48,720 bases of DNA from Treponema sp. (lineage in GTDB: Bacteria > Spirochaetota > Spirochaetia > Treponematales > Treponemataceae). The number at the start of each line of letters is the position of its first letter. Positions within the stretch are counted from its first letter, which is position 1. Shown one piece after another: positions 17,754 through 21,828 of this stretch. The translations under genes and the position numbers were made by a program. The notes under the pieces were generated by a model, which was not told the DNA's origin, made no database searches, and saw only the letters and a list, made by a program, of their open reading frames with translations. The stretch covers positions 1 to 48,720 of the forward strand of contig JAILFZ010000120.1 of assembly GCA_024697295.1 (NCBI GenBank). Direction: 5' to 3'.

Positions 17754-20330
17754 TTAAATTTCTCCAATCTGACTGACTGTCTGTTTTTTTTCTGTTTTTT
17801 TTGATTTTGTTTCTTTTTTCTTTTTTGGTTCTTCAAATTCAACTTTGATTGTCTGTTTTACAAGATCAACGACAATTTTATTTGAAGGAGGATTCGGGTT
17901 TTCCAAAAGCAATAGAGAAAGCTGGTCTTCAATTTCTTTTTGAATGATTCTTCTCATCGGGCGGGCACCCATGCTCGGTTCATATCCGTTTTGAATCAAA
18001 TATTCGCGTCCTTTTTTTGTAACGCTGATTGTAAGATTTTTATCAGCAAGGCGGTCTACGAGTTCCCCCAGCTGAATGTCAAGAATCGAAGCAATCTGCT
18101 TTTTGTTAAGGGCGTCAAATACAACTACATCATCAATACGGTTAAGAAGTTCCGGGCTCATCAGGCGTTTAAGTTCTTCAAGAGCATTAGCCTTAATCTG
18201 ATTGTAAGGAAGTGTTCCGTCATCAACAGATGAAAAACCGAGGCGGTGTTCTGTTGTAATCTGTCTTGCACCTGCATTACTTGTCATAATGATTACAGTG
18301 TTTCTGAAGTTTACAGTGTGACCAAGGTTATCGCTCAATTCACCTTCTTCGAGGAGCTGGAGCAGAAGATTGAATACATCAGGATGTGCCTTTTCAATCT
18401 CGTCCAGGAGAACAACGCTGTACGGGTGACGGCGGACCTTTTCTGTAAGCACCCCGCCCTCATCAAAACCGACGTATCCAGGAGGTGCTCCGACAAGTCT
18501 GCTCGCATTGTGTTTTTCCATGTAGTCAGACATATCGATACGAATCAAGGCGTCTTCTGTTCCAAAAAGGAATTTTGCAAGAGTTTTGGCAAGCTGAGTT
18601 TTTCCAACGCCTGTAGGTCCAAGGAAAATAAATGAACCCATAGGCCTGTCGGCGGAACTTACCCCGGAGCGGCTTCGTCTGATTGCGCCTGACAAAAGTT
18701 TTACCGCTTCGTCCTGGCCGATGACAGATTTATGAAGTTCATCTTCCATGTGAAGGAGACGTCTGGATTCATTTGAATCGAGCTGTTCAAGCGGAATGCC
18801 TGTGATTGCAGAAATTATCTGGCAAACATCGTCCACCGTAACGTGTTTTTTAGATAAAGAGGAATGATTCTGCCAGTAATTACTGAATTCATCAAATTTG
18901 CGTTTTAAGTCGCGCACCTTGTCACGGACTTCGGCGGCCTTTTCATAATTCTGGGTTGCAACAAGTTCTTTTTTTTCGTTGCTCAGGTTTTCAATTGCCT
19001 TCTCAAGTTCGGCAAGTTCCTGAGGGCGTTCTTCTTCGGTGATTTTTTTAGCTGAACCGGCTTCATCGAGAATATCGATTGCCTTGTCCGGCAAAAAACG
19101 TTCAGGGATATAACGCTCTGAAAACTTAACAATCGAAGGAATTACATCTTCATCATAAATGACCCCGTGGAATTCCTCGTATTTGCCTTTAAGGCCGTTC
19201 AAAATAGCCTCAGTATCCTTAACGTCAGGCTCATCAACTTTTATAACCTGGAAACGTCGTTCGAGGGCTGAGTCCTTTTCAAAATATTTGCGGTATTCCT
19301 TTAAGGTTGTAGCACCGACAATCTGGATTTCTCCGCGGCTGAGGGCAGGCTTTAAAATATTTGAAGCGTCCATTGCCCCTTCAGGTCCGCCTGCTCCGAT
19401 GATTGTATGTAATTCGTCGATAAAGATAATGATATTTCCGTCTTCACGGATTTCTTTCATCATTCTCTTCATTCGGTCTTCAAACTCACCGCGGTATTTG
19501 GTACCGGCAACAAGAGCTGCAAGGTCGAGGCTCAGAATCCGCTTTTTTAACAGGTAGTATGGTACTTTGCCCTGAGCAATATTTTGAGCAAGGGCTTCTA
19601 CAACGGCAGTTTTTCCAACCCCCGGCTCACCTACTAAAACAGGATTGTTTTTTGTCCTGCGGCTTAAAATCTGAACAAGTCTTTTTAATTCCTTTTCGCG
19701 GCCTACTACAGGATCAAGTTTTCCTTCACGGCTAAGGGCTGTCAAATCGCGGCTGTATTCGGCAAGGAATGATGCGTTCTGGCGGCGGCGTTCAAAAGGC
19801 CCCTGGGCCGGAATCATCGGTCCCTGGCTGGTCTGATTGAATTTTGGATTTTTATTTGCCTGTTTTGCAAAGAAATAGCTTGAAGTAAAATGACTTTGAA
19901 CAGTTCTTACAGCATTGCGGATATCTTGTGAAGAAATCCCTGCACGGCTGAAAAACTTGTGGGATGTGCTGTCTTCTTCGCGTGAGGAAGCGATAAGGAT
20001 GTGCTCGCTTCCGACATATTCGTTACTGAGGGCATTTGCTTCCATTGCGGCAACATCGATTAAGGCCCTCAGACGGATTGACGGAGGAAGTTCAGAAACC
20101 TGGGTGTCGCGGTTGGGATTTTCCGAAAAGTTTTTTTCTATCATGACCTGCAGCGGCAGGACATTAAGATTTAATTCTTTTAAAGTTATAAAGCCGAGGC
20201 CTTCGGAACTTTTGATCATGGCAAGAAGAACGTGTTCGGGCAAAAGCTCAACAGAACCGCATTTACGGCCCTCTTCCTGTGCGATGATTAATAATTTCTG
20301 TAAAAGTGGAGAAATTGTTTTCATACCCAT
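17754..20330 (-). CDS. clpC: ATP-dependent Clp protease ATP-binding subunit ClpC
   Basis: 858 aa; Clp-N repeats, [19 protein letters not shown]-like segment [53 protein letters not shown]; next to mcsB and mcsA. Confidence 0.95.
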
Positions 20331-20335
20331 ATATT

Positions 20336-21451
20336 TTACTCACAAACTTGAATATGTTCAAACGCATTGCGAATCACTTTCATGCGCATAAACTGTTCCT
20401 GCAGGGGGCGGTCATTTGCAATATCCTGCGGAAAAGAAAACTGTCCGTTACTCAAAACGAATTTTAATTTTGCGTCCTGTACACGGTAATAAATCGTCAT
20501 AATCTGATGATAAGTTAAATTATTGAATAAACCGAGGTTTACGCCCCAGCGCAACCCTGAGACAATTGAAAGTGCCTCGCGGTTGGTACACAGGTATCCG
20601 ATTTTTGTGCTTGCAAAACACTTGAAGATTATGTCCTTTGCCCGTGTCATGTGTTTTTGAATGATAATTTTGCGGCTCTCAAGTTCAGTCTGAATGATTA
20701 AGTTGAGGGCCTCGGCAAATAGATTGCGTTGTTCTGCTTCGTTTCCGACACTGCTTATAGTCGTAGACGCGATAAAGAATGAGCCTGCGCTAAAGCCGAA
20801 TTTTGAATCTGAGTTTGGACCGAATCCGTATTTGAGTTCAATATTTTTTTTCTGAAGGCCCTCTACAAGGGCCGGCAACTGTTCAAGAAAGGCCGTGGAA
20901 GGCAGATGAACCATAGCGGTTAGTTTGAGTCCGGTTCCGCTGTCTTTTATATTTGAAGTTAAATAGCCGTATTCGGTGCTGGCCGCAAACTGAAGGTACT
21001 GCTGGAGTTCAAGGTCAGCTTCGTGGCATTTTTTATAGGCACCTTCAATATCAAGGCCCGCATTCGTACAGGAAATTCTGATATGGTCCCGGTCGTTTAC
21101 GGTTGCGATAAAGCCCATGTTGGATTTGTTGCCGTCAAGGCACTGAACGATTCCGCCGGCCGGTGCGTTGTTTACGGACTCTTTTATCATTCCTCGTTCC
21201 ATAAAAAGATTAAAGCCGAGCGTCATCAGGCTTGGAATTGAATTTGTCTGATAAAAGTCAGCCTTTTTTGCGAAGGCGTCAAAGACAAGTGTCTGAACCC
21301 TGACTGCATCTTCAGTTTTTATTTTCTGAGGAAAAGGAAAATCTGCGAGATTTCTGACAAGTCTTGCCCTGGTAGAAACAACTACATCGTCAAAATTACC
21401 CTTGTAGCTGTACCATTCAAAAAGGTTGTCAGTAAGATTGAGTTCCGACAG
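20336..21451 (-). CDS. mcsB: ATP:guanido phosphotransferase-family protein (McsB-like); atypical start, divergent active site
   Basis: The track ORF (20336-21226) continues in frame upstream: LSELNLTDNLFEWYSYKGNFDDVVVSTRARLVRNLADFPFPQKIKTEDAVRVQTLVFDAFAKKADFYQTNSIPSLMTLG. GGAGG at 21458-21462 precedes ATT-ATT-CTG. CTG at 21451-21449 is the best-spaced candidate start. Confidence 0.85.
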   Translation of the reverse strand: MSELNLTDNLFEWYSYKGNFDDVVVSTRARLVRNLADFPFPQKIKTEDAVRVQTLVFDAFAKKADFYQTNSIPSLMTLGFNLFMERGMIKESVNNAPAGGIVQCLDGNKSNMGFIATVNDRDHIRISCTNAGLDIEGAYKKCHEADLELQQYLQFAASTEYGYLTSNIKDSGTGLKLTAMVHLPSTAFLEQLPALVEGLQKKNIELKYGFGPNSDSKFGFSAGSFFIASTTISSVGNEAEQRNLFAEALNLIIQTELESRKIIIQKHMTRAKDIIFKCFASTKIGYLCTNREALSIVSGLRWGVNLGLFNNLTYHQIMTIYYRVQDAKLKFVLSNGQFSFPQDIANDRPLQEQFMRMKVIRNAFEHIQVCE

Positions 21452-21489
21452 AATAATCCTCCATTAAAAAGCGGCGCTGCAGGGACTTT

Positions 21490-21828
21490 TTAGCATACAT
21501 CGTCACTGCCCTGAACAGGAGACTTTTCTATGGCTCTGAGATAGTCACGGTAAAAGGCTGCTTTTTCGTAGTCTTCGTTTTTTAAAGACTCCTGCAGCTT
21601 GTTCTGAATCAGAATTCTGTCTGTCAGAACATTTCTAAAGCGAGGAAGTTTTTTTGGCAGCTGTCCGGTATAAGTTGAATTTACACCAAAGTCTTTAAGG
21701 ATATCCCTGATGTATGAATCAAAACTTGCATAGCATTCGGGGCATCCGGCTTTTAAAGTACTTTTTATTGAATTGAGGCTTGTTCCGCAAACGGGACAAA
21801 CGAGATTTTCTTCATAATTCATAAACAC
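21490..21828 (-). CDS. mcsA: McsA-like zinc-finger protein with UvrB/UvrC motif (short form)
   Basis: 112 aa; CPVC...CPEC pair and C-terminal LQESLKNEDYEKAAFYRDYLRAIE; adjacent to mcsB and clpC. Confidence 0.8.
   Translation of the reverse strand: MFMNYEENLVCPVCGTSLNSIKSTLKAGCPECYASFDSYIRDILKDFGVNSTYTGQLPKKLPRFRNVLTDRILIQNKLQESLKNEDYEKAAFYRDYLRAIEKSPVQGSDDVC

Follow-up and report, generated by a model that had tools for sequence, protein, structure and literature searches.

The window analysed here is a 48,720-nucleotide stretch of DNA from a Treponema sp. draft assembly (1.93 Mb; 82.8% complete; contig C98 in our set), and it carries on its minus strand an mcsA-mcsB-clpC operon (17754-21828), the gene context of the McsB lineage. 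The genes and features used throughout are the following:

25161-21857, minus strand: ABC transporter gene, upstream of the mcsA-like gene
21828-21490, minus strand: mcsA-like gene, 112 aa (NF053706 match; UVR motif PF02151; CxxC inventory)
about 21451-20336, minus strand: mcsB-like gene, encoding a degenerate protein-arginine-kinase homologue of about 371 aa; probable CTG start
21077-21097, minus strand: NDRDHIR, at the position of the catalytic NEEDHIR motif (HMMER and MAFFT alignments)
20924-20953, minus strand: NIKDSGTGLK, at the position of CPTNVGTGLR (C167N, N170D, R176K; HMMER and MAFFT alignments)
20789-20833, minus strand: lid loop KYGFGPNSDSKFGF..., lacking the second catalytic Glu (B. 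subtilis E212) and carrying R207K (alignments)
20381-20398, minus strand: phospho-arginine pocket columns, RDIRRA changed to EQFMRM (residue-by-residue comparison)
20330-17754, minus strand: clpC, 858 aa, the last of the three genes

Only 28 bases separate the mcsA-like gene from the gene upstream. No in-frame ATG, GTG or TTG lies near the expected start of mcsB (21430-21470); a CTG at 21451-21449, placed behind a GGAGG, aligns with the ATG of a relative (L003), and the start is probably this CTG or, in its place, a one-base indel may be present. The ambiguity lies outside the catalytic region and leaves the active-site calls unaffected. The window ClpC was best matched by the ClpC of genome G116 (71% identity), and the mcsA-mcsB-clpC order was kept in nearly all loci fetched. 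A second, active McsB elsewhere in the genome was looked for: no second PF00217 gene was found in the window genome (82.8% complete), and near-complete relatives likewise carry a single mcsB copy.

Fold and active-site residues of the window McsB

An earlier reading of the window by eye (hereafter, the sequence-only reading) had assigned the mcsB product to the ATP:guanido phosphotransferase family, and this assignment was borne out by profile search, by a structure model and by structure comparison. The protein scored 81 bits against PF00217 (cut-off: 22.4), and its AlphaFold2 model (pLDDT: 89; pTM: 0.88; low confidence at residues 215-218) had the McsB structures 6fh1 and 6tv6 as best PDB matches in Foldseek (TM: 0.81-0.87). 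The McsB fold is thus predicted with confidence. Scores against the McsB equivalog models, which were presumably built on active homologues, fell below the curated cut-offs (NF002194: 162.5 bits, cut-off 385; NF053707: 136.4 bits, cut-off 500).

Catalytic positions were read from HMMER alignments against solved McsB proteins (6fh1, 8wtb and 6tv6) and from MAFFT alignments, with numbering according to B. subtilis McsB. The sequences of B. subtilis McsB, McsA, ClpC and YwlE, and of Geobacillus McsB as a second outgroup, were entered by hand, in part after printed alignments; the reference McsB sequences match the PDB alignments up to residue 318, and the C-terminus of B. subtilis McsB (RDIRRA) is the motif quoted in PMC7235348. 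Read in the direction of this minus-strand gene, the interval 20942-21097 opens with the codon for N119 (21097-21095) and closes with that for N170 (20944-20942). In both HMMER and MAFFT alignments NDRDHIRIS faces NEEDHIRIQ and NIKDSGTGLKLT faces CPTNVGTGLRAS, each ungapped. The sequence-only reading had taken NEEDHxR to read NDRDHIR, with the catalytic Glu gone, and the CPTN.GTGLRAS segment to lack its conserved Cys and Arg (C167N, R176K), and both observations held. A register shift that would restore the Glu and the Cys, the condition under which that reading would have failed, was rejected because both motifs align without gaps.

Relative to B. subtilis McsB, the window protein carries E120D, E121R, C167N, N170D, R176K, R207K, R337E, D338Q and A342M, and retains R29, R31, R34, N119, D122, H123, R125 and R341. 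The NEEDH motif with the catalytic Glu (E121) reads NDRDH and the catalytic Cys (C167) is Asn. The second catalytic Glu (E212), whose loss adds to the residues listed in the sequence-only reading, has no counterpart in loop KYGFGPNSDSKFGF, which contains no Glu; column 212 is ambiguous and holds P, K or D depending on the alignment, and Glu in none of them. The phospho-arginine pocket (RDxxRA) had also been described as altered, and it is (R337E, D338Q, A342M), at a different site from the one named: the pocket columns read EQFMRM (20398-20381), just downstream of the NDRPLQEQ that had been pointed to, and R341 is the sole pocket residue kept.

No kinase signal was obtained in vitro with B. 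subtilis McsB carrying R176K, R207K or R337K singly, and the C167S allele is kinase-dead (PMC7235348). As stand-alone proof, R176K, R207K and the loss of R337 are weakened by the spirochaete homologues described below, in which K207, K176 and a lost R337 also occur with E121 and C167 intact, so that E121 and C167 carry the argument. Glu loss alone is no proof of inactivity, because arginine kinases mutated in their catalytic Glu residues can retain low activity.

Distribution and constraint across Treponemataceae and other Spirochaetota

A homologue was present in 171 of 296 Spirochaetota genomes. The Treponemataceae census comprised 126 McsBs, 46 from the 296-genome set and 80 from a separate collection with some genomes in common (e.g. 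T. berlinense), and it included isolates and complete genomes (T. socranskii, T. parvum, T. ruminis, T. porcinum, T. berlinense, T. saccharophilum). E121 and C167 occurred together in none of the 126; E121 was found in 11 and C167 in one (L190). Chance or sequencing error is ruled out because the pattern recurs in these 126 genes, and MAG assembly error was rejected on the identical pattern in isolates and complete genomes.

The same degeneracy in all spirochaetes was also considered and rejected. Elsewhere in Spirochaetota 28 homologues keep E121 and C167 (families coded f22, f27, f33, f36, f41, f49 and f51), so that "spirochaete McsB" is not one thing; the change, which the sequence-only reading had discussed for spirochaete McsB in general, is not universal in the phylum. 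The intact homologues have R176 in most cases and an acidic residue at 212 in about two thirds, often K207, sometimes K176, and R337 in none or almost none. Catalytic residues have been lost separately within otherwise intact spirochaete families as well (L230-L235, L247-L249, L064, L068, L251). On a tree built without the key columns and rooted on B. subtilis (115 rows), parsimony gave at least seven independent losses of the intact state, one of which covers 69 of the 115 rows; the count is approximate because the tree is of a quick kind and its branches are long. The degenerate state is old, since it is common to the whole family Treponemataceae.

Constraint was assessed in 66 redundancy-reduced Treponemataceae sequences, over the 66 columns whose conservation in intact homologues reaches 90% or more. 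Among these columns E120 and E121 ranked first and second by entropy and C167 ninth, and the residues directly flanking E120/E121 are invariant (N119, H123) or nearly so (D122); R34 and R341 are also invariant. Such a pattern marks the release of catalytic constraint within a structure that has been retained. Positions 120, 121, 167, 207 and 212 have no conserved substitute and vary freely in Treponemataceae. About 35 positions show conservation of 80% or more in Treponemataceae and of less than 50% in the intact set, for example position 236, a Gln in every sequence of the reduced Treponemataceae set; this suggests that the function has changed and is not vanishing.

These data bear on whether the protein may still be an enzyme of altered chemistry, transferring phosphate to arginine or another acceptor through the kept Arg residues, D122, H123 and a conserved K176. 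The sequence-only reading had offered different chemistry as one of two options, and we consider it unlikely, because the catalytic positions are free to vary and have not been taken over by new conserved residues; the kinase-inactive C167S and the signal-less R176K and R207K of B. subtilis McsB (PMC7235348) weigh against it too. On its side stand the retention of R29, R31, R34, N119, D122, H123 and, mostly, R125, the presence of K176 in 111 of the 126 proteins, and the residual activity that Glu mutants of arginine kinase can show.

We also weighed whether the gene is a relic on its way out, its kinase function gone and its sequence slowly decaying. In 15 close pairs of relatives dN/dS (Nei-Gojobori) was 0.04-0.17 for degenerate mcsB, somewhat higher than for clpC in the same pairs (0.03-0.11); purifying selection was measured in relatives, no relative being close enough to the window lineage. 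No stop interrupts the reading frame in any of the matched genomes listed. Within its close group the window copy itself diverges most; its start is not ATG and the McsA beside it is truncated, and in some congeners mcsA and mcsB have been lost jointly, all of which could fit decay. Set against this, the low dN/dS and open frames in relatives, the new near-invariant residues such as Q236 and the family-wide, hence old, degenerate state make a relic very improbable.

McsA, ClpC, CtsR and the arginine phosphatase

The window McsA has the second zinc finger (CPVC...CPEC) and the UVR motif and lacks the first zinc finger. First-finger loss was also seen in a separate clade of seven congeners (L026, L028, L029, L031, L033, L038, L040). 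The second finger is retained even where the first is lost, and this C-terminal finger has been reported as the McsB contact (PMC12467219). On the McsB side, R255, R272, E287 and R341 have been linked to McsA stimulation or to the S. aureus tetramer contact, and R255K, R272K and R341K in B. subtilis McsB abolish McsA stimulation (PMC7235348). These four residues are mostly or fully kept across Treponemataceae, although the window has K at 272, and R86 and R281 are not kept. In two congeners, one 99% and the other 96% complete (G081, L263, and G282, L262, in no set order), mcsA and mcsB are both absent while clpC is present with transporter genes abutting it. Such natural double deletions speak for a two-protein unit. 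Both genes are also missing from a member of the family with a 1.1 Mb genome.

In the window ClpC, the two N-domain Glu residues that correspond to E32 and E106 of the phospho-arginine site are present (LPEH, GSEH). Their persistence in treponemal ClpC would be in keeping with altered chemistry in McsB; as a marker of phospho-arginine signalling, however, these residues were dropped, because they are kept almost everywhere, beside intact and degenerate McsB alike.

CtsR was found in 0 of the 296 Spirochaetota genomes sampled, and the positive control was found in Lactococcus lactis. The absence of this classical client from the sampled phylum, together with the description of B. subtilis McsA as a redox-sensing protein (PMC5506225), could point to regulation of something other than ClpC-dependent turnover, in which McsB might, for example, partner McsA in a redox- or zinc-dependent way or co-regulate transcription. 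We give this little credence: clpC lies directly next in nearly all loci where the neighbourhood is visible, which argues for a ClpC-linked role.

Low-molecular-weight (LMW) phosphatases were classed by the P-loop specificity position, which is Thr in arginine phosphatases and Ile in Tyr phosphatases (PMC8001253). This residue replaced mere presence of a LMW phosphatase as the phospho-arginine marker, because most matches were of the Tyr type (Ile) or arsenate-reductase-like (GNSCRSQ). In the window genome a single LMW phosphatase was found, and its P-loop (HGNICRS) is that of a Tyr phosphatase. Inspection of 50 loci gave the YwlE-type CTGNTCRS in just two genomes, G012 and G036, whose McsBs (L137, L094) keep E121, C167, R176, R207 and E212; G025 (family f36) has a strong YwlE match, its P-loop lying outside those read. 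In the remaining intact families GNSCRSQ proteins occur and a clear YwlE does not; lack of YwlE therefore goes with degenerate McsB and does not define it. That no phospho-arginine-type phosphatase was found alongside degenerate McsB in the loci inspected is a further point against altered chemistry.

McsB as a candidate pseudokinase adaptor of ClpC

We judge it probable that the product of the window gene is an McsB pseudokinase which, together with McsA, serves ClpC(P) as an adaptor or regulator independent of phosphorylation. A kinase fold, lost catalytic residues and, in relatives, purifying selection are all found. Of the options in the sequence-only reading, a non-catalytic McsB beside ClpC is the better supported. 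Kinase activity would have been lost, judging by the residues, and the pointers to a putative adaptor role are gene order, conserved positions and the joint loss of mcsA and mcsB. In the proposed mechanism, a folded McsB would pair with McsA without transferring phosphate to arginine; the McsA-McsB complex would contact ClpC, and would deliver clients to it or gate it in place of a phospho-arginine mark. Nucleotide binding may serve as an allosteric signal, given that R29, R31, R34, D122, H123 and mostly R125 are kept.

The nearest known systems are the McsBs of B. subtilis, Geobacillus stearothermophilus and Staphylococcus aureus (6tv6, 6fh1-3, 8gqd), which share with the window protein the two-domain fold, the McsA and ClpC operon partners, R29, R31, R34, N119, D122, H123 and R125, and the invariant R341. 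Unlike them, the window protein lacks E120, E121, C167, R337 and an alignable Glu212, has K176 and K207 and falls below the McsB equivalog cut-offs, and neither CtsR nor a Thr-type arginine phosphatase was found with it. Intact Spirochaetota McsBs (e.g. L062, L067, L069, L077) come from the same phylum and the same mcsA-mcsB-clpC order but keep E121 and C167, and two such genomes have the CTGNTCRS phosphatase. The C167S mutant of B. subtilis McsB likewise lacks the catalytic Cys and, although kinase-dead, still affects MgsR degradation in part (PMC7235348); it is a laboratory single mutant, whereas treponemal McsB is naturally without several catalytic residues. McsB freed from oxidised McsA takes CtsR off DNA without kinase action, although in B. 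subtilis the kinase is required for most McsB adaptor activity (PMC5506225). Protein pseudokinases such as chlamydial Pkn5 (named in PMC5177608) offer a further parallel, a kinase fold without catalytic residues under selection, but Pkn5 has a Ser/Thr kinase fold and the window protein a phosphagen-kinase (guanidino kinase) fold.

Within the open-access literature, a scope that leaves out most subscription papers, no paper was found on treponemal or pseudokinase McsB. Treponemal McsBs match protein-arginine-kinase models, and chlamydial homologues are discussed as kinases (PMC10128030, PMC5177608), being taken as such on homology. Kinase activity is very unlikely for the treponemal homologue, and arginine phosphorylation is therefore not to be assumed in Treponema or in most other spirochaetes. 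In B. subtilis the kinase and adaptor roles of McsB are hard to separate, and spirochaete lineages appear to have separated them by evolution; the question is directly testable because intact, degenerate and jointly deleted versions exist in one phylum. For most of Spirochaetota, the chances are about even that the phospho-arginine degradation mark was repeatedly abandoned and its writer kept and, together with McsA, turned to a new role as adaptor or regulator of ClpC that needs no mark. If so, the phylum would hold a natural evolutionary separation of the adaptor role of McsB from its kinase role.
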